A DNA stretch of 64,000 bases. Source: Saccharofermentans sp. (lineage in GTDB: Bacteria > Bacillota > Clostridia > Saccharofermentanales > Saccharofermentanaceae). Every line of letters begins with the position of its first letter. The stretch's first letter is position 1. The position numbers were made by a program, and so were the translations under genes. This document shows positions 52,229 to 62,038 of the stretch, piece after piece. The stretch covers positions 1 through 64,000 of the forward strand of contig JAIKZM010000196.1 in the NCBI GenBank assembly GCA_024682215.1, in the 5' to 3' direction. Under the pieces are notes generated by a model. The model was not told where the DNA came from. It saw only the letters and a list, made by a program, of their open reading frames with translations, and did not search any database.

Positions 52229-52798
52229 ATGGCGAAAAAGACGAATGCTGTGTTAGGGCTTGCAATAATCGCACTGTTTCTGGTCCATATCATCTATGAG
52301 ATCTTTGCTTATCTGACTTTTTATTACAATCCCGTCGTAACCAAGCTGATCGCTTATTCTACTCTTGGAGCAGTTGCACTTCACGTTCTCATGAGTGTTT
52401 ATATCGTTTTCTTCGTTCATGACAGGGGAAACGGCATGAAATATCCGGCATTAAACGCCAGGACTGTGATCCAGCGCGTAAGTGCCGTCATCATGACTCT
52501 CCTCATGATCGTTCACATGAATACATTTAGCCTTCTGTCCGCGAACGCAAAGACCAACAGGTCTTTGTTTGTTCTTATACTGATCGTTCAGATCTTCTTT
52601 TATGCATCAGTGCTCCTGCATGTGGCAGTGTCCGCCGGAAATGCGCTGATAACTCTAGGACTTGTCACTTCCGGTAAGACCAGAAAGAAAATAGACATAG
52701 CAGTCTGGACAGTCTGCACCGTTTTGTTCCTGGCTGCCTCGGTCATCGTCGTTAAGACTCAGATAGCTATGTTCCTTGGCCAGGGAGGTGCATCATGA
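52229..52798 (+). CDS. Succinate dehydrogenase/fumarate reductase cytochrome-b-like membrane anchor
   Basis: Five TM helices with His residues in the TMs ('FLVHIIYE','VALHVLMS','MIVHMNTF','LLHVAVSAG'); overlaps the flavoprotein gene by 4 nt. Confidence 0.72.
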   Translation: MAKKTNAVLGLAIIALFLVHIIYEIFAYLTFYYNPVVTKLIAYSTLGAVALHVLMSVYIVFFVHDRGNGMKYPALNARTVIQRVSAVIMTLLMIVHMNTFSLLSANAKTNRSLFVLILIVQIFFYASVLLHVAVSAGNALITLGLVTSGKTRKKIDIAVWTVCTVLFLAASVIVVKTQIAMFLGQGGAS

Positions 52799-54420
52799 GC
52801 AGGGTGCTTATCATCGGCAGCGGAATATCCGGAATTGCCTGTGCGATAGAGGCCGCTTCCAAAGGATCAAAGGTGATCCTTGTTTCACCGTTCCCCTCGG
52901 AAAGGTCGCAGTCTGTACTTGCGGCCGGCGGGATCAATGCGGTCATGGATACGGAAAGCGGTGACAGCATTGAACGGCATATCGAAGATACCCTCAAAGG
53001 AGGATGCTTCATCGCTGGTGAAAAAGCTGTCAGAGGCCTTTGCAGTGCGGCTCCCGACATCGTCGGATGGCTGGAGAGCCTGGGTACGGTCTTCAGCAGG
53101 GATAAGAACGGAAAGATCGCAACCCGCGCGTTCGGCGGGCAGAGCTTCCCGAGGACTCATTATGCGGGAACATCAACCGGCAAACAGATAGTAACTGCGC
53201 TTGTCATGGAGGCGAGAAGGCTCGAAGGCATGGGCTTGATCGAAAGACGTTATTGGACTGACTTCCATTCAGGTCTTATAAGAGACGGGATATGCTATGG
53301 CGCAATGCTCTACAATGAGGCAAAAAGGACTGTGGAAGCCGTTGCCGCGGATGCCGTCGTAATAGCATCAGGCGGCCAGAACGCGCTTTTCGGGAAGACA
53401 ACGGGCTCAACGCAGTGCGACGGATATGCTATAGGAAAACTGTTTATGCAGGGGGCGGAACTCAAGAACCTTGAGTTCATACAGTATCATCCTACGACGA
53501 TCGTTACCGACCAGAAGAAGATGCTCGTTTCGGAGGCTGCAAGAGGCGAAGGCGGCAGGCTATTCTATGATGAAGACGGGAAGAGGGTCTACTTCATGGA
53601 AGACATGTACGGTCCCAAAGGCAATCTCATGCCGCGAGACATTGTTTCCAGGTGTATTCACGAGACCGGAAGGCAGGTGTACCTCGATGTCACATTCCTC
53701 GGAAAAGACAAGATACTTAAACGCATTCCTGAAATATATGAACTGTGCTTGAAATATAAGAATCTCGACATAACCCGCGTTCCAATCCCGGTCGTCCCGT
53801 CAGTTCATTTTTTCATGGGCGGACTCGCCGTGGATCTTAAGCACAGGACTAACATTAAGAACCTTTATGCGGTTGGCGAATGCGCCTCGATGTATCACGG
53901 CGCGAACAGGCTCGGAGGCAATTCGCTCCTTGCGGCGATATACAGCGGAAAGATAGCGGCTCAGACACTTTGCGGAACAAAGACCGATTCACCGGACTGG
54001 TCTGAAGAAGTCAAAACAGAAAATGAGAAGCTTGAACTTAAAAGGAGATCCGAAAGCAGATTCCCGGTCATGTATGTAAGGGGGCTTCTTGCCGACACCG
54101 TAAATGGTTCTTTGGGCATCGTCAGGGAGAAGAACGGGCTTCTTAACGGCATTTCATCCGTCGAATACTATATGAGTATTGCAGATAAGATCAATTACGA
54201 CAGGTCGGAACTAGAATATTTCAACTACAGTCTTGAAGGCATACTTTCGCTTGCAAAGGCGGTTCTCATTTCTGCTGAAAGCAGATGCGAGAGCAGGGGA
54301 TCGCATCTGAGGAGCGATTACCCTGAAAAGTCTGACGGATGCATGGCGGCAACGGTCATCAGTTATGAGGGCGGTGCTTATAAGACCAGATTGGTCAAAG
54401 AGGACGATTATGAAGGTTAA
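52795..54420 (+). CDS. Succinate dehydrogenase/fumarate reductase flavoprotein subunit
   Basis: 'VLIIGSGISGIACAIEAASKGSKVILVS', 'FIQYHPTTIV', 'LMPRDIVSRCIHETGRQVYLDVT', 'VHFFMGGLAVDLKHRTNIKNLYAVGECAS.YHGANRLGGNSLL'. Confidence 0.9.
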   Translation: MSRVLIIGSGISGIACAIEAASKGSKVILVSPFPSERSQSVLAAGGINAVMDTESGDSIERHIEDTLKGGCFIAGEKAVRGLCSAAPDIVGWLESLGTVFSRDKNGKIATRAFGGQSFPRTHYAGTSTGKQIVTALVMEARRLEGMGLIERRYWTDFHSGLIRDGICYGAMLYNEAKRTVEAVAADAVVIASGGQNALFGKTTGSTQCDGYAIGKLFMQGAELKNLEFIQYHPTTIVTDQKKMLVSEAARGEGGRLFYDEDGKRVYFMEDMYGPKGNLMPRDIVSRCIHETGRQVYLDVTFLGKDKILKRIPEIYELCLKYKNLDITRVPIPVVPSVHFFMGGLAVDLKHRTNIKNLYAVGECASMYHGANRLGGNSLLAAIYSGKIAAQTLCGTKTDSPDWSEEVKTENEKLELKRRSESRFPVMYVRGLLADTVNGSLGIVREKNGLLNGISSVEYYMSIADKINYDRSELEYFNYSLEGILSLAKAVLISAESRCESRGSHLRSDYPEKSDGCMAATVISYEGGAYKTRLVKEDDYEG

Positions 54421-55087
54421 GATATTGAGGCAGCAGCATCCGGGCGCGAAACCCTACTGGCAGACGTTTGAGTACGAAGGTGACACTGGCGCCTCAATAG
54501 CTGCTGTTCTGGACAGCATTAATTACAGGGATGATATCGTAGATTCGGACGGAAATCCGACTGACAGGATATCCTGGGAATGTTCGTGCGTTCAGGGCAT
54601 GTGCGGTGCTTGCGCGATGGTTATCAACGGTGTTCCTGCGCTGGCCTGCGACACTTTCGTTAAAGATCTCAAAGGCAGCTTCATCACGATAGAACCGCTC
54701 AGGAAATTTCCTGTCATCAGCGATCTTGTGGTTGACCGCGGGATCATACAGGAAAACCTCAGGAAGATAAATGCGTTCATAGGTGAATATCATAAAGAGA
54801 ACGAGAAGGACCATGAACTTGAATACCAGATAGGCAGATGCCTCAAGTGCGGACTTTGTCTTGAAGCCTGCCCGAACTATGTGAAGGGCGATAACTTCTA
54901 CGGTCCGCTGTTTGCAAATGACAGTTTCTTCGTCATGTCGCGCAGCAAGGGAGACTCGAAGCAGATAAAGAAGGATTACGGCGAGCATTTTGCCAAGGGC
55001 TGTTCCAAATCCCTGGCATGCGAAAAGGTATGTCCCGTGAATATACCTACGCTGGCTTCGATCGCAAAAATGAACAGAGGCAAATGA
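54410..55087 (+). CDS. Succinate dehydrogenase/fumarate reductase iron-sulfur subunit
   Basis: 2Fe-2S 'WECSCVQGMCGACAMVINGVPALAC'; cluster motifs 'CLKCGLCLEACP' and 'CSKSLACEKVCPVNIP'. ATG at 54410 overlaps the flavoprotein gene. Confidence 0.88.
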   Translation: MKVKILRQQHPGAKPYWQTFEYEGDTGASIAAVLDSINYRDDIVDSDGNPTDRISWECSCVQGMCGACAMVINGVPALACDTFVKDLKGSFITIEPLRKFPVISDLVVDRGIIQENLRKINAFIGEYHKENEKDHELEYQIGRCLKCGLCLEACPNYVKGDNFYGPLFANDSFFVMSRSKGDSKQIKKDYGEHFAKGCSKSLACEKVCPVNIPTLASIAKMNRGK

Positions 55088-55145: not shown

Positions 55146-56270
55146 ATGGAAAAGTCTAAAGTGTATTTCACTGATTTCAGAACCGGTCTGGGAGTGCCGC
55201 TCACATTAAAACTGCAAAAGCTCATTAAGCTGGCGGGTATCGGAAATATCGATTTCGAGAACAAATTCGTTGCCATAAAGATGCATTTCGGTGAACTCGG
55301 AAACCTTGCATATTTAAGGCCTAACTATGCCAAGGCGGTAGCGGATGTGGTCAAAGAGAACGGCGGAATGCCTTTCCTTACGGACTGCAACACTTTATAT
55401 CCCGGAAGCAGAAAACACGCGCTCGAACACATGGACTGCGCTAACATCAACGGATTCAACACGGTTACGACAGGCTGCCAGATAATCATCGCTGACGGTC
55501 TGCGCGGCACCGATGACATAATCGTTCCGGTACCTAACGGCGAATACTGCAAAGAGGCTTACATCGGCCGCGCCGTCATGGATGCCGATGTGTTCATTTC
55601 GCTTACGCATTTCAAAGGCCATGAACAGGCGGGTTTCGGCGGAGCCATTAAGAACATCGGAATGGGGTGCGGTTCGCGCGCCGGAAAGATGCAGCAGCAT
55701 CAGAGCGGTCATCCGCATGTTATCTATGACAGCTGCAGAGGCTGCAGAAGATGTGCGAAAGAGTGCGGCTCCGATGCGATCTACTATGAAGCAGGCAAGG
55801 CCTGGATCGATCCGGACAAGTGTAAGGGATGCGGACGTTGTATCGGTGCATGCGCTTTTGACGCCATCGAGAATGACAACTGGAATGCCGCTTCTCTCCT
55901 GGGATGCAAGATGGCCGAATATACCGCGGCTGTAATAAGCGGCAGGCCGAATTTCCATATATCGCTTATCACGGATGTTTCGCCGAACTGTGACTGTCAC
56001 GGCGAAAACGACGCTCCGATCCTTCCTGACATCGGTATGCTCGCATCATTTGATCCCGTTGCGCTCGATCAGGCATGCGTTGACCTGTGTTCCCATGCGG
56101 AACCTGTCAGAAACAGCCAGCTCGGTGATAATATGTCGCATCCTGATTTCCACGATCACGGCGATCACTGGCACAACAGCAATCCGAATGTTTCATGGGC
56201 TGAGACTCTTGAACACGCCGAGAAGATCGGTATCGGAACCCGTGAATATGAACTGGTCTCAATGAAATAA
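55146..56270 (+). CDS. DUF362 domain protein with 2x[4Fe-4S] ferredoxin motifs
   Basis: 'VAIKMHFGELGNLAYLRP', 'CRGCRRCAKECGSDAIYY', 'CKGCGRCIGACAFDAIE'. Confidence 0.88.
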   Translation: MEKSKVYFTDFRTGLGVPLTLKLQKLIKLAGIGNIDFENKFVAIKMHFGELGNLAYLRPNYAKAVADVVKENGGMPFLTDCNTLYPGSRKHALEHMDCANINGFNTVTTGCQIIIADGLRGTDDIIVPVPNGEYCKEAYIGRAVMDADVFISLTHFKGHEQAGFGGAIKNIGMGCGSRAGKMQQHQSGHPHVIYDSCRGCRRCAKECGSDAIYYEAGKAWIDPDKCKGCGRCIGACAFDAIENDNWNAASLLGCKMAEYTAAVISGRPNFHISLITDVSPNCDCHGENDAPILPDIGMLASFDPVALDQACVDLCSHAEPVRNSQLGDNMSHPDFHDHGDHWHNSNPNVSWAETLEHAEKIGIGTREYELVSMK

Positions 56271-56298: not shown

Positions 56299-57144
56299 AT
56301 GAAAGCCGTGTTAGCCGGAGCTTACGGCAATCTCGGAGCCGATATCTTCAGGACACTGACAGAACAGGGACATGAAGTGACCGCGCTCGACATGATGCAA
56401 AGAGATATCGGTATTGATTCGGGTTTTAAGTTCATCAAGGTCGATGTTACCGATCCGAAGACCCTGGAAGGCGTCTGCGACGGCGCGGATATCGTGATCA
56501 CAACGGTAGGACTTACAAAAGGCTCCGCAACTGTAAGCAATTACGACATTGATTATCAGGGCAATCTCAATCTGCTCAGCGAGGCGAAAAAGGCCGGGGT
56601 AAAGAACTTTGTATATATCTCCGTGATCAAGGCGGACACGGCTCCGGATGTTCCGATGGTACATGCGAAGTATCTTTTCGAGGAGGAACTCAAAAAGAGC
56701 GGCCTGACTTATGTCATTCACCGTCCGACCGGCTATTTCTACGACATCATAAAAGTCTTCAGGCCCATGATCGAAAAGGGCAAGGTAACTCTGCTTGGCA
56801 AGGAACCCGTCTATGCAAACATCGTTTCGACTGAGGATTTTGCAAAGTTCATAGTTGAACACATGACCGATGAGAACAAAACGTATTCTGTCGGAGGGAA
56901 AGAAAAGTATTCATATGAAGAGATCGCCAGGATGTGCTTTGAGGCAGCAGGCAAAGAGCCTGTGATAAAGAGGGCGTCACCCGGAATATTCGATATGCTG
57001 GCCTGGATCAACAAACTGAAGAAGAACGGCAAGGAAGCCATAATCAAGTTCTCTAAATGGACTCTGACGCATGACATGGTCGGTGACACCATAGCAGGCG
57101 GCATGAGCTTTGCAGAGTACATCAAAAAGAGCTTTTCAAAATGA
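56299..57144 (+). CDS. NmrA-like/atypical SDR NAD(P)-binding protein
   Basis: 'MKAVLAGAYGNLGADIFRTLTEQGHEVTALD...VKNFVYISVIKAD...YLFEEELKKSGLTYVIHRPTGYF'. Confidence 0.82.
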   Translation: MKAVLAGAYGNLGADIFRTLTEQGHEVTALDMMQRDIGIDSGFKFIKVDVTDPKTLEGVCDGADIVITTVGLTKGSATVSNYDIDYQGNLNLLSEAKKAGVKNFVYISVIKADTAPDVPMVHAKYLFEEELKKSGLTYVIHRPTGYFYDIIKVFRPMIEKGKVTLLGKEPVYANIVSTEDFAKFIVEHMTDENKTYSVGGKEKYSYEEIARMCFEAAGKEPVIKRASPGIFDMLAWINKLKKNGKEAIIKFSKWTLTHDMVGDTIAGGMSFAEYIKKSFSK

Positions 57145-57800
57145 TCGGCAGTATTGAGCAGAAGGCGGTCAGCTTCTTAAAGAACAGTAATGCGGTACTT
57201 CTTCCGGAGGACTGCTATACGGATATGAAATATCCGAAATTGCTGCCTTTGATGCGGTTCCATGTAGACCGTTACAGCGTTCCCGGCTTGGGGTATGTGA
57301 TGATAATGCACACGGTTACAAAGATGGGCATGGAACTGATCACGACGTCTTTCATGCCTTCAGAATGCGTTGACCTTCCTTATCTGCTCCTCGATGCGAT
57401 GAGCATGAAGAAGAAACGCTGTGTATTCGTTGAGTACTACGGATGCGGAATGGAGGAACTGTCGGATGATGCGTTGAAAGACGTATATGACGATTACTGC
57501 GGTCTGCCTGATTACGAGGAGAAAGAAAACTGGTATGTCAAAGAGCGGATGCCGTATTCACTCATAAAGACCGGCGATACTGATGATTTGGTCTGCATGG
57601 CGGCAGATTCCGTCCGTGCATACCTGGGATCGGCCGCAAGTGCCAGATTTATTCCCGGGTACGGGGAAAAACTCAGATCTTTCAGGGAACGGATGATAAC
57701 TGAGGGCAACCCGTCTAGCAAGACGCTCAACATGCTCCTTAAAGAGGATGGGGCAAGGGCTTTCATGGAAAGCGTGATAATGCCTCTTAAGGAGGACTGA
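57141..57800 (+). CDS. Uncharacterised 219-aa protein; candidate divergent ferredoxin-dependent bilin reductase (FDBR/HY2/PcyA)-fold protein
   Basis: ORF is clear (4-nt overlap with the upstream gene, 1-nt gap to the downstream gene). Family assignment is tentative, from manual resemblance of 'GMELITTSFMPSECVDLPYLLLDA' and the C-terminus to PcyA recalled from memory. Confidence 0.45.
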   Translation: MIGSIEQKAVSFLKNSNAVLLPEDCYTDMKYPKLLPLMRFHVDRYSVPGLGYVMIMHTVTKMGMELITTSFMPSECVDLPYLLLDAMSMKKKRCVFVEYYGCGMEELSDDALKDVYDDYCGLPDYEEKENWYVKERMPYSLIKTGDTDDLVCMAADSVRAYLGSAASARFIPGYGEKLRSFRERMITEGNPSSKTLNMLLKEDGARAFMESVIMPLKED

Positions 57801-57801
57801 C

Positions 57802-58563
57802 GTGGTATTTTACTTTTCGGGAACCGGCAACAGCAGGTTCGTCGCCAGGAACATAGCAAGAGCGATAGGGCAGGAGACTGCTGATATCACGTCATATACC
57901 AAAAACATGGAACGGCCGTCTTTTACCGAAACCGGCATATATGTTTTTGTCTGTCCTTCTTACATGTCCGCTCCCGCAAGGGCAATGACGGATTTCATCG
58001 AATGGGCGGGATTTCCTTCGGGCATAAGAGCATACTTTATCGTCACATGTGCCGCTTCAATGGGTATTACGCCCAGGGTCGCAAGTGAACTGTGTGAGAA
58101 GAAAGGCATGGAATACATGGGAGCCGCACAGATCGAAATGCCCCAGAATTACATTGCCCTGTTTACTACTAAGCAGGTAGAGGAAAACATCGACATCATT
58201 GAAAAAGCCGCGACCGAGATCGAAAGGATATCAGGTTTAATCAAAGACGGTAAAACGATCGGGACAAAGAAGATCGGAGCGGTCGAATATTCGGTTACCA
58301 AGTGGGTGAGGGATGTTTACTATAAAGACTTTATGAAAACGACTAAGTTCAAGGCAACCGACAAGTGCATCGCATGCGGAAAATGCGTCAGCGTTTGCCC
58401 GCTGTCCAATATCACGCTGAAGGATAAAAAGCCCTCATGGGGTAAGAAATGCACGCACTGTATGGCTTGCATAAACCAGTGCCCTGTTGACGCCATCGAA
58501 TACGGAAAGGGCACTGCGGGCAAGCCCCGTTACAAGGGCCCTGATTCGGCGTTGAAACAGTAA
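57802..58563 (+). CDS. EFR1-type flavodoxin-like plus 2x[4Fe-4S] ferredoxin protein
   Basis: GTG start with ggaggactgac SD; 'VFYFSGTGNSRFVARNIARAIGQE' and 'CIACGKCVSVCPLSNI', 'CTHCMACINQCPVDAIEYG'. Confidence 0.9.
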   Translation: MVFYFSGTGNSRFVARNIARAIGQETADITSYTKNMERPSFTETGIYVFVCPSYMSAPARAMTDFIEWAGFPSGIRAYFIVTCAASMGITPRVASELCEKKGMEYMGAAQIEMPQNYIALFTTKQVEENIDIIEKAATEIERISGLIKDGKTIGTKKIGAVEYSVTKWVRDVYYKDFMKTTKFKATDKCIACGKCVSVCPLSNITLKDKKPSWGKKCTHCMACINQCPVDAIEYGKGTAGKPRYKGPDSALKQ

Positions 58564-58655: not shown

Positions 58656-59795
58656 ATGATTTATTTCGATAACAGCGCTACAACCTTTGTTTCTGAAGCT
58701 GTAAGGGCGAAGATCCTTGAGCTTACAGCCGATCCGGTCTCTGCAAATCCGGGCTCGCTTCATAAGCTCGGTACTAAAGCAGCTGAGCTCTATGAGGGCA
58801 TCAGGAGAGATACGGCATCGCTTCTTGGTGCCAAAAGTGAAGAGATATTTTTTACGTCATGTGCTACAGAAAGTGCAAATACCGCCATCAAAGGCTACAT
58901 GAGCCGTAATAAGAGGGCGGGAAATGCGGTCATATCTACAAGGACCGAGCATAAAGCGACTCTCGAGTGCCTCGAGTATCTGGCAAAGCTCGGATATGAG
59001 ATAAGATACGTTAAGGTGGGTTCAGACGGCAAGCCCGTTATGGAGAGCCTTGAGGAAGAACTCAAGAAGGGCAGTGTTGCTCTCACATGCTTCACGCTCG
59101 TAAATAACGAAACGGGCTCGGTGCTTCCTTTTGATCAGATATCCAATACTGTTAAGGCGCTGTCGCCATCAACGGCAATATATCTCGACTGCGTTCAGGC
59201 GCTGGGCAAGATGCCGATCAATCTTTATTCGTTTGGCGCTGACATGTGTTCGTTCTCAGGCCATAAGATCCATTCTGTCAAAGGCAACGGTGTCCTGTAT
59301 GTCAAAAAAGGCGTAAGGATCGATCCTTTGATCCTTGGCGGCGGCCAGCAGGAAGGCATGCGTTCAGGTACTCAGAGCCCTGTGCTCGCCGGTGCTTTTC
59401 TCGCCGCGCTCCAAGAGGTGTCTTCAGGCATTGAAGAGGCAGCGGCAAAGACAGCGGAGATCAATGCTTATCTTCGTAAGGAACTTGCTGAAAGAGACGC
59501 GATCATCCTTTCACCGGAAGATGCACTTCCATACGTGCTCAATGTCTCTTTCAAAGGCTTCGAATCCGAGACGATGCTTCATTGTCTTGAAATATACGAT
59601 ATATATGTCTCTACGGTATCTGCTTGTTCTTCCAAGGCTAAAAAGGTATCCTATGTGCTGCTCGAGTCAGGCGTTGACAGAAAAGTGGCAGCAAATGCCG
59701 TAAGGCTCTCCTTCTCGCGTTATAATACGATGGAAGAGGCGGAAGAATTCATCAGACGCGTTGACGAAATATACGAACAATTTCTTTTGAAGTGA
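58656..59795 (+). CDS. Cysteine desulfurase (NifS/IscS-like)
   Basis: 'MIYFDNSATTFVSEAV...CATESANTAIKG...TRTEHKATLECLEYL...SGHKIHSVKGNGVLYVKKG...STVSACSSKAKK'. Confidence 0.92.
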   Translation: MIYFDNSATTFVSEAVRAKILELTADPVSANPGSLHKLGTKAAELYEGIRRDTASLLGAKSEEIFFTSCATESANTAIKGYMSRNKRAGNAVISTRTEHKATLECLEYLAKLGYEIRYVKVGSDGKPVMESLEEELKKGSVALTCFTLVNNETGSVLPFDQISNTVKALSPSTAIYLDCVQALGKMPINLYSFGADMCSFSGHKIHSVKGNGVLYVKKGVRIDPLILGGGQQEGMRSGTQSPVLAGAFLAALQEVSSGIEEAAAKTAEINAYLRKELAERDAIILSPEDALPYVLNVSFKGFESETMLHCLEIYDIYVSTVSACSSKAKKVSYVLLESGVDRKVAANAVRLSFSRYNTMEEAEEFIRRVDEIYEQFLLK

Positions 59796-59805
59796 GGATC
59801 ATATA

Positions 59806-61008
59806 ATGGCAAACGTCCTTCTGGCAAGAATGGGTGAGATAACTCTCAAAGGGCTTAACAGAGGTTCTTTTGAAATACAGCTCAAGAGCAATCTTAAGTA
59901 CAGGCTTAAGAGATTCGGTCATCTGAAGATATATCAAAGCCAGAGCAGGATCTGGATCGAACCCAAGGAAGAGGATAATCCCAACTTCGAAAGCATGGAG
60001 GCGGCACAGGATATCATGAAGGCCGTCTGCCAGGTTTTCGGCATCGTTTCCGTAAGCCTCGCAAGAAAATTCGAGGGCGATTTCGAATCGATCAAGGAAA
60101 ACTCGGTCGAGTGCATCAAGGAGCTCCTTGCCCAGAATCCCGATTTTGTCACTTTCAAAGTCGAGAGCAAGCGCGGAAACAAGACGTTCCCGATGACTTC
60201 ACCCGAGATTTGCGAGGAGCTCGGAGGCTATATCCTCGATAATTTCCCCCAGCTCACGGTAAAGGTCAAGAATCCGGACTTCATCCTCAATGTTGAGATC
60301 CGTGAACATAACTATATCTATTCAGGCAAGATGATGGCTCACAGAGGTCTTCCGGTCGGCTCATGCGCAAAGGGCATGCTCCTTTTGTCAGGCGGTATCG
60401 ACAGCCCTGTGGCTGGTTTCATGATGGCATCCCGCGGAATGCCTCTTGATGCCGTGTATTTCCATTCATATCCTTACACGAGCGATCTCGCAAAGCAGAA
60501 GGTAATCGACCTTGCAAAGATAGTTTCCGGTTACTCCGGACGCATGACGCTTCATGTCGTTAACTTCACGCAGATCCAGCTCGATCTTTACAAGAATTCA
60601 CCTCAGGACATGCTCACCGTCACAATGAGAAGGATAATGCTCCAGATCGCAGAGCGCCTTGCACAGAAGAACGACTGCAAGTGCCTTATCACCGGTGAGA
60701 GCCTTGGACAGGTTGCATCACAGACCATGGAAGCCATCGCTGCAACCAACGAAGTCGTTAAGATGCCTATCATGAGACCTCTCATCGGCATGGACAAGCA
60801 GGCCACATGTGATATTTCACGTGACATCGGTGCTTTTGAGACATCGATCCTTCCTTATGAGGACTGCTGCACTGTGTTTGTTGCAAAACACCCCAAGACA
60901 CATCCTCATCCGGAAGACATCGTCGAGGCGGAAAAGAACCTCGATATTGAAGCTATGGTTGAAGCCGGTGTTGCCGGAACAGAAGATATTGAGATAACCC
61001 CGTTCTGA
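59806..61008 (+). CDS. thiI: tRNA 4-thiouridine synthetase ThiI (no rhodanese domain)
   Basis: THUMP domain and 'MLLLSGGIDSPVAGFMMASRGMPLDAVYFHSYPYTSDLAKQKV', 'CLITGESLGQVASQTMEAI'. Confidence 0.93.
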   Translation: MANVLLARMGEITLKGLNRGSFEIQLKSNLKYRLKRFGHLKIYQSQSRIWIEPKEEDNPNFESMEAAQDIMKAVCQVFGIVSVSLARKFEGDFESIKENSVECIKELLAQNPDFVTFKVESKRGNKTFPMTSPEICEELGGYILDNFPQLTVKVKNPDFILNVEIREHNYIYSGKMMAHRGLPVGSCAKGMLLLSGGIDSPVAGFMMASRGMPLDAVYFHSYPYTSDLAKQKVIDLAKIVSGYSGRMTLHVVNFTQIQLDLYKNSPQDMLTVTMRRIMLQIAERLAQKNDCKCLITGESLGQVASQTMEAIAATNEVVKMPIMRPLIGMDKQATCDISRDIGAFETSILPYEDCCTVFVAKHPKTHPHPEDIVEAEKNLDIEAMVEAGVAGTEDIEITPF

Positions 61009-61009
61009 T

Positions 61010-62038
61010 ATGAAGATAGGCAAACTTACAGACGAACAGCTCCAGTCACTGGTAATAAGCAGACTGCCGGCACTTTCCGCCACGACCCTTTCGGGAGCGG
61101 GAATAGGCGCCGACTGCGCTTGGATCAGGGCAGGAGAAGACCTTATGGTCACGTCTTCTGATCCGATCACTGCAGGTGGGACCGAGTCGGGAACGCTTGC
61201 CATTCATGTTTCGTGCAATGACATCGCCGCATGCGGCGTAAGACCCTCTGGAATACTGATAGTTATAATCGCGCCGCCTTCTGTCACTGAAGATGATATA
61301 AGGATGACGGTAGATCAGGCCAGCCATGAGGCACAGGCACTTGGCGTTGATATCGTCGGAGGCCATACTGAGGTTTCTGATGCCGTCAACAAGATGATCG
61401 TTGTATCCACCGCATTCGGGCTTATTAAAAAGGGTGGATGTGTTCCCAGCGGAAAAGCAATGCCCGGAGACAGCCTTATAATTACCAAGACAGCGGGGAT
61501 AGAGGGAAGCTTCATTGCCGCCAATGAACACAGGGAAAAACTTGCCGGAAAAGTCAGCGAGGAATGCATCCGTGAAGCGCTTTCCTATAAGAGTCTGGTC
61601 TCTGTCGTAAAAGAAGGGGCAACTTGCGGAAGCCTGATAGCAAGAAATGTAAAATACAGAGAAGACGGTTTTGCGTTGAGCGCCGTAAATCTCATGCATG
61701 ACGTTACCGAAGGAGGCGTGTTTGGAGCGGCCTTTGAGATGGCTGATTTCTCCGGGACAGGTGTCGTTATCGATAAGAGACTGGTCCCTTTTACAGAGGC
61801 AACGACAGCAATATGTGATGCACTCGGACTCGATCCGTTCAGGCTCATCTCATCCGGATCTCTTATGATCGCAACGCCTGAACCTGAAAGAGTCATTGAA
61901 GAACTTAAGGCTCAAGGCGTTCCGGCAACCGTTGTCGGTTCGTTTACGGACAAGTCCGAAGGCGTTTTTTATATTGAAAACGACGGTTCTTATGTCAAAT
62001 TGTCGCCTCCCGGGGCTGATGAGATATATAGTATTTGA
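61010..62038 (+). CDS. AIR synthase-related protein (HypE/ThiL/SelD superfamily)
   Basis: 'GADCAWI...VTSSDPITAGG...VSCNDIAACGVRP...VDIVGGHTEV...MHDVTEGGVFGAAFEMA'. Confidence 0.83.
   Translation: MKIGKLTDEQLQSLVISRLPALSATTLSGAGIGADCAWIRAGEDLMVTSSDPITAGGTESGTLAIHVSCNDIAACGVRPSGILIVIIAPPSVTEDDIRMTVDQASHEAQALGVDIVGGHTEVSDAVNKMIVVSTAFGLIKKGGCVPSGKAMPGDSLIITKTAGIEGSFIAANEHREKLAGKVSEECIREALSYKSLVSVVKEGATCGSLIARNVKYREDGFALSAVNLMHDVTEGGVFGAAFEMADFSGTGVVIDKRLVPFTEATTAICDALGLDPFRLISSGSLMIATPEPERVIEELKAQGVPATVVGSFTDKSEGVFYIENDGSYVKLSPPGADEIYSI

Follow-up and report, generated by a model that had tools for sequence, protein, structure and literature searches.

Ferredoxin-dependent bilin reductases (FDBRs) hold their tetrapyrrole in a cofactor-free pocket and act by successive single-electron transfers from ferredoxin; in PcyA and PebS the protons are supplied by active-site acids. 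Red chlorophyll catabolite reductase (RCCR) also receives its electrons from ferredoxin.

FDBR homologues have been described in many heterotrophs, among them the pre-PcyA groups pre-1, pre-2 and pre-3 of heterotrophic bacteria, and in the same 2023 study all PcyA relatives were argued to depend ultimately on O2 (PMC10151467). Chloroflexi, Proteobacteria, Acidobacteria, Planctomycetes and Myxococcales are named there, and the words "Firmicutes" and "Clostrid" do not occur in its text. Two additional clades related to the FDBRs, both uncharacterised, were reported in 2026 (PMC13193486) and, the supplements of that paper aside, no description of FDBR homologues in Firmicutes was found in the literature searched. 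In the gut, bilirubin is reduced by BilR, which has a flavodoxin-like partner; in R. gnavus, domains of the flavodoxin-like and of the NADP(H)-binding type are part of BilR itself (PMC10769871). Our analysis of a 64,000-nucleotide stretch of DNA from Saccharofermentans sp. (the window) suggests that Clostridia possess an undescribed, anaerobic and far diverged branch of the FDBR family with a likely electron donor encoded alongside.

The gene and its relatives

The ORF listed first in Table 1 is a real gene. When compared to the related locus L001, 104 of 152 differences were located in the third codon position, and this predominance of third-position substitutions indicates that the ORF is coding; across 21 relatives of its product, 46 columns are invariant. 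As the initial annotation had stated, the 219-residue protein has no obvious common family, and scans with Pfam, NCBIfam, PHROGs and PADLOC were all empty and thus gave no match to a characterised non-bilin family. The C-terminal segment quoted in that annotation occurs in the ORF as given. No relatives were found in phage records or viral contigs, and a phage or viral origin of the gene was rejected for this reason.

A scan of 84,980 species yielded 18 loci with identities of 56-84%. These relatives are Clostridia, mostly from the ruminant gut, as judged from most of the 18 record titles, for which there is no background rate. Together with members from a further genome search they make up a 21-member alignment (A1). 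For distant homologues, a search of 391 Clostridia genomes led to ten more genomes, with L029, L033, L034 and L038 forming clade B and L030-L032 and L035-L037 forming clade C, whereas the window protein belongs to clade A. Divergent FDBR/RCCR members occur in anaerobic, mostly ruminant-gut Clostridia and in Erysipelotrichia. Two more divergent copies of clade A, L026 (50% identity) and L027 (43%), are found in the genus of the window itself; NmrA and EFR1 genes are not alongside them within the DNA examined.

Table 1. Positions of the gene, of its active-site codons and of neighbouring genes in the window.
Feature	Position	Strand	Basis or remark
FDBR-superfamily protein, divergent (clade A)	57141..57800	+	ORF, 219 aa
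Segment GMELITTSFMPSECVDLPYLLLDAMSM, residues 63-89, aligned with PcyA 83-109	57327..57407	+	gap-free alignment
Thr68 codon, PcyA His88 position	57342..57344	+	alignment
Asp85 codon, position of the PcyA/PebS catalytic Asp105	57393..57395	+	invariant in clades A, B, C
Asn190 codon, PebS Asp206 position	57708..57710	+	PebS alignment
Succinate dehydrogenase/fumarate reductase-like set	52229-55087	same strand	
DUF362 protein, two [4Fe-4S] motifs	55146..56270	+	PF04015 E 1e-57; 28 bp before the NmrA gene
NmrA, NAD(P)H-binding atypical SDR	56299..57144	+	PF13460 3.7e-20, PF05368 2.7e-17
EFR1, N-terminal flavodoxin-like and C-terminal 2x[4Fe-4S]	57802..58563	+	NF038196 E 2.6e-72, Fer4 at 186-232
NifS-like, ThiI-like, AIR-synthase/HypE-like genes after EFR1	58656-62038	same-strand run (NifS-, ThiI-like)	

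Fold and homology to FDBRs

The AlphaFold model of the window protein, calculated from close relatives only (A1) and without templates, had a pLDDT of 93.3 and a pTM of 0.91. When it was compared to the PDB with Foldseek, all of the top 46 matches were PcyA, PebB, PebA, HY2, PcyA1, RCCR, PebS or PcyX, with E values ranging from 1.6e-9 to 7e-3. The match to PcyA (2g18) had an E value of 1.6e-9 and a TM score of 0.78, and RCCR (E 2.3e-6) was matched more weakly than the FDBRs. PcyA, PebS and RCCR, the structures that the initial annotation had named for comparison, are all among the 46, and no unrelated fold was matched with confidence. The next meaningful match was coproporphyrinogen oxidase (E 0.72), a known fold cousin of FDBR/RCCR, and the ranking is the order expected from the relations of the fold as published (PMC13193486). 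The Pfam family of coproporphyrinogen oxidase did not match the window protein at E values up to 5. The model predicts for the window protein an FDBR-type alpha/beta/alpha fold with a central antiparallel sheet.

The relationship had initially been proposed from an ungapped match to a segment of PcyA. This segment was quoted correctly, and the full-length Synechocystis PcyA sequence to which it belongs has 100% identity with PDB 2d1e. The alignment is indeed free of gaps and, over its 27 residues, contains 5 identities; however, the best ungapped 27-mer score, which falls on the diagonal of the initial annotation, was reached by 133 of 300 shuffled sequences, and the Smith-Waterman score of the window protein against PcyA was under the shuffled mean. 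The proposal was right, but its pairwise grounds could not decide homology. Identities between the window protein and known FDBRs amount to about 9-16%, with a value of about 10% across the fold, and neither the window protein at E values up to 5 nor the search of the host genome gave a match to Pfam Fe_bilin_red (PF05996). The RCCR family of Pfam, suggested at the outset as another profile to try, matched none of 16 members at E values up to 5.

The FDBR signal emerges only with profiles and structure. Although PF05996 missed the window protein, the clade C member L030 exceeded its cut-off of 31 with 31.9 bits (E 1.4e-7), and L031, L033, L037 and L038 matched it under the cut-off; clade C is thus already within the reach of Pfam, whereas clades A and B mostly are not. 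A profile of clades B and C, with clade A held out, found the window protein at E 2.4e-16. In the other direction, a profile of authentic FDBRs reached clade C (E 4.6e-11) and clade B (E 4.3e-9) and did not reach clade A directly, and a clade C profile found both PebA (E 8e-8) and the window protein (E 8.6e-9). With hhalign, the alignment of the Clostridia members against ten FDBR references gave a probability of 96.9% (E 1.6e-10), as compared to 73% for clade A alone. The profile alignment is full-length and takes in the C-terminal NDKTRRVL / NPSSKTL region. In a tree, Clostridia members and known FDBRs were split with full support, and clades B and C were placed in separate parts; since branches are very long and there is no outgroup, neither a root nor an order of clades is claimed.

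If the similarity had arisen by chance and the fold were unrelated, a pairwise PcyA score not above shuffles and the lack of a family match for the protein alone would be expected. Such a reading is scarcely credible in view of a Foldseek E value of 1.6e-9, of 46 of 46 top matches within the superfamily and of held-out profile searches that were significant in both directions; for practical purposes, the fold and the held-out profiles refute it. Homology to the FDBR superfamily, as proposed initially, is near certain: it is secured through intermediates, and direct detection from the window protein alone is weak. In searches of the PDB, phmmer matches to coronavirus nsp1 were chance matches only and were rejected. 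With the A2 profile a bromodomain protein came out on top (E 0.05) and PebS followed at E 0.2; from that search only the PebS alignment was used, and solely as support for the position of the Asp.

Active site and operon

The Asp that the initial annotation had placed opposite the catalytic Asp105 of PcyA was retained there in three separate alignments, one being the PebS profile alignment and two obtained with hhalign. P80 and D85 are invariant and P73 is nearly so across the three Clostridia clades, and these residues correspond to the FDBR-invariant P93, P100 and D105; Glu98, Trp131 and other residues are also invariant across clades. At the position of PcyA His88 there is a Thr, as had been noted, and every Clostridia member aligned has Thr or Ser. 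This position was correctly described as variable among FDBRs, being Thr in pre-3 and Asn in pre-2 pre-PcyA (PMC10151467). The position of PcyA Glu76 is taken by an invariant Met (Met56), so that the triad Glu76/His88/Asp105 of PcyA proper is replaced by Met56/Thr68/Asp85 and is incomplete. The second acid, Asp206 in PebS, is not conserved either: clade A has Asn at this position, and clades B and C have Gly. The general proton-donor Asp has thus been kept, and the residues by which PcyA and PebS position the substrate and determine regiospecificity have not. Since Glu76, His88 and Asp206 are not conserved, the product, and perhaps the substrate, probably differ.

The NmrA gene stops within the start of the FDBR gene (4-bp overlap, ATGA), and the GTG start of EFR1 is preceded by its ribosome-binding site, an AAGGAGG located within the end of the FDBR gene, which indicates that NmrA, FDBR and EFR1 are probably translated together. 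EFR1 is the flavodoxin/ferredoxin fusion that had been recognised in the next gene, and two other EFR1 genes are present in the host genome. L001-L011 have the order NmrA-FDBR-EFR1 within a number of differing neighbourhoods, and L012 and L018 have FDBR-NmrA-EFR1. EFR1 is not beside the FDBR gene in the Erysipelotrichaceae loci L014 and L015, in L013, L016 and L017, or in clades B and C, and is therefore not an obligatory neighbour. From its place in the operon, EFR1 is likely the electron donor of the window protein.

An NmrA protein at E 1e-50 or better occurred in 5 of the 391 Clostridia genomes, all five of them within the twelve that have an FDBR homologue, and in each it lies beside that homologue (hypergeometric probability about 1e-8, a value that ignores kinship). 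In clade B, NmrA is 74% (L054), 74.7% (L056) or 55% (L051) identical to that of the window, whereas the FDBR proteins share only about 18-21% identity with the window FDBR. The association with NmrA therefore predates that with EFR1 and is the stronger of the two. The window NmrA protein also matches 3Beta_HSD, and SimC7 and triphenylmethane reductase are among its relatives of known structure. With a pLDDT of 70, the model of this NmrA protein is mediocre; it matches extended SDRs generally and thus does not fix the substrate of this partner.

The DUF362 gene is found upstream in L001, L003, L004 and L010 and is missing from the other neighbourhoods; it is a possible extra operon member in part of the genus only. 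A DUF362 copy with 87% identity also occurs in L054 (clade B), where about 5 kb separate it from the FDBR gene. The order of the NifS-like, ThiI-like and AIR-synthase/HypE-like genes is kept in L003, L004 and L010, and these genes probably constitute a separate set related to sulphur or selenium.

Several catalytic FDBR residues have been lost, and Chlamydomonas PcyA1 (8xqw), a component of the Ycf2-FtsHi protein-import motor, demonstrates that the FDBR fold can lose its enzymatic role. The window protein could likewise be a non-catalytic relative that retains the fold as a tetrapyrrole-binding sensor, a carrier or a structural protein. We regard this as very unlikely, given the invariance of Asp85, Glu98, Trp131 and other residues across clades and an operon with two redox proteins whose gene order changes. 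On balance we favour an enzyme: judging from sequence and gene context, the window protein is somewhat more probably than otherwise a low-potential reductase of a tetrapyrrole that acts outside the haem-oxygenase pathway, by an FDBR-like mechanism and together with EFR1 and NmrA. A tetrapyrrole would be bound in the cofactor-free alpha/beta/alpha pocket, single electrons would be delivered by EFR1 as a low-potential iron-sulphur/flavin protein, and Asp85 would donate or relay protons, resulting in a radical-type reaction that reduces a double bond of the tetrapyrrole by two electrons net. The NmrA-type protein would most likely act on this substrate as well, in a step that uses NAD(P)H. The substrate is probably an imported tetrapyrrole or some other one, for example one derived from chlorophyll or haem in the ruminant gut.

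Substrate, oxygen and comparison with known systems

Haem oxygenase (PF01126) was not found in the host draft genome (2.63 Mb), where absence alone is no proof at a completeness of 85%; the absence recurs in many relatives, and of 25 genomes with an FDBR homologue PF01126 was undetected in 23. The remaining two, L078 (G303) and L079 (G416), belong to clade C and do encode it, with scores of about 122-124 bits, and their haem oxygenase genes do not adjoin the FDBR homologue. HutW/ChuW gave no match over the cut-off in the host or in 25 related genomes; rSAM matches in the host were judged by length and sequence to be HemW- and HemZ-like and were rejected as ChuW/HutW. Biliverdin made by the cell itself is an improbable substrate, because neither haem oxygenase nor a ChuW-type ring-opener was found in the host genome.

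A bilin reductase that acts, like PcyA, HY2 and pre-PcyA, on biliverdin-type bilins would then depend on the haem oxygenase of neighbours or of the animal host. The Thr shared with pre-3 at the His88 position, the retained D105, the activity of pre-PcyA enzymes on biliverdin (PMC10151467) and the haem oxygenases of two clade C genomes are compatible with such a role. It is nevertheless doubtful, considering that haem oxygenase was undetected in the host and in nearly all of the FDBR-bearing genomes, that equivalents of Glu76, His88 and Asp206 are missing and that a very long branch leads to known FDBRs.

Breakdown of chlorophyll to phylloerythrin has been described for the ruminant gut (PMC13030745) and, in combination with the ruminant-gut record titles of the relatives, this makes chlorophyll-derived pigments an attractive candidate substrate. 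In the Erysipelotrichaceae loci L014:5953-10506 and L015:2015-6481, the FDBR gene is followed by genes for an MgtE (divalent cation) transporter and for the iron transporters FeoA-FeoB, which might point to a metallated tetrapyrrole that gives up its metal.

Other clades have other partners. A second operon type, present in other Clostridia families (L054:5128-8081, L056:5054-8056 and L051:7275-10339), is that of clade B. It begins with NmrA, continues with two membrane proteins, the first DUF1295/steroid 5-alpha-reductase-like and the second small and with no match in Pfam, and ends with a divergent FDBR homologue. In clade C (L030, L031, L032, L035, L036, L052; genus g40), the FDBR gene lies divergent beside an FAD-dependent oxidoreductase gene in five genomes. 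In L055 a short remnant, similar to the C-terminal part of this FAD-dependent oxidoreductase, lies close to the FDBR gene, which is divergent from a MarR-like regulator gene.

The steroid-reductase-like protein of clade B could mean that the substrate is not a tetrapyrrole. An FDBR-fold reductase might instead act on a conjugated hydrophobic molecule that is sterol-, terpenoid- or polyketide-like, in concert with the SDR and, in clade B, with the membrane enzyme; the gene composition NmrA-DUF1295/Steroid_dh-membrane protein-FDBR, the relation of NmrA to 3Beta_HSD, SimC7 and triphenylmethane reductase and the FAD oxidoreductase next to clade C would all suit it. We consider this unlikely, because the catalytic Asp is invariant and because all characterised families that have this fold, namely FDBR, RCCR and coproporphyrinogen oxidase, act on tetrapyrroles (PMC13193486).

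Going further than the favoured tetrapyrrole reductase, one may tentatively imagine a strictly anaerobic FDBR/RCCR lineage that reduces a tetrapyrrole of O2-free origin, such as a chlorophyll-derived one in the ruminant gut, and that has a flavodoxin-ferredoxin protein as its dedicated donor and an NAD(P)H-using protein as partner. Since Clostridia homologues without a detected haem oxygenase come with a low-potential donor of their own, the proposed O2 dependence becomes directly testable. If O2-free tetrapyrrole reduction were true, it would break the published generalisation on FDBR relatives and leave room for an origin that did not follow oxygenic photosynthesis. If the enzymes are active, they would also stand for an unrecognised tetrapyrrole route of the gut, alongside BilR and BilV, with relevance to the chlorophyll pigments of grazing animals, phylloerythrin among them (PMC13030745), and they could supply oxygen-independent bilin-modifying enzymes.

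In comparison with known systems, the window protein has its fold in common with the FDBRs (PcyA, PebA, PebB, HY2, PebS and PcyX; PF05996), and a ferredoxin-like partner gene is next door; in contrast, the operon is a different one, the branch is strongly separated and haem oxygenase was not detected in the host. RCCR has the same fold and offers a plausible ecological link to chlorophyll, although the window protein has no match to the RCCR family of Pfam. ChuW/ChuY process a tetrapyrrole anaerobically with the help of a reductase that uses NAD(P)H, as the window set is proposed to do, but ChuY is not known to share the FDBR fold. The pre-PcyA enzymes also come from non-photosynthetic bacteria, pre-1 and pre-3 clusters include an Fe-S protein, and pre-3 has the same combination of Thr at the His88 position and retained Asp105 as the window protein (PMC10151467). 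Whereas pre-PcyA clusters contain bilin-binding globins, in many cases also haem oxygenase, and in pre-1 and pre-3 V4R proteins (PMC10151467), the window operon is without bilin-binding globin, haem oxygenase and V4R and has DUF362, NmrA, EFR1 and NifS-like neighbours. BilR and BilV are TIM barrels of the Old Yellow Enzyme family, a fold unrelated to that of the window protein. In anaerobic gut Firmicutes, BilR/BilS (PMC10769871) and BilV (PMC13252198) nevertheless pair a tetrapyrrole reductase with components that are flavodoxin-like or bind NADP(H), as would the window set if its central protein is indeed a reductase.
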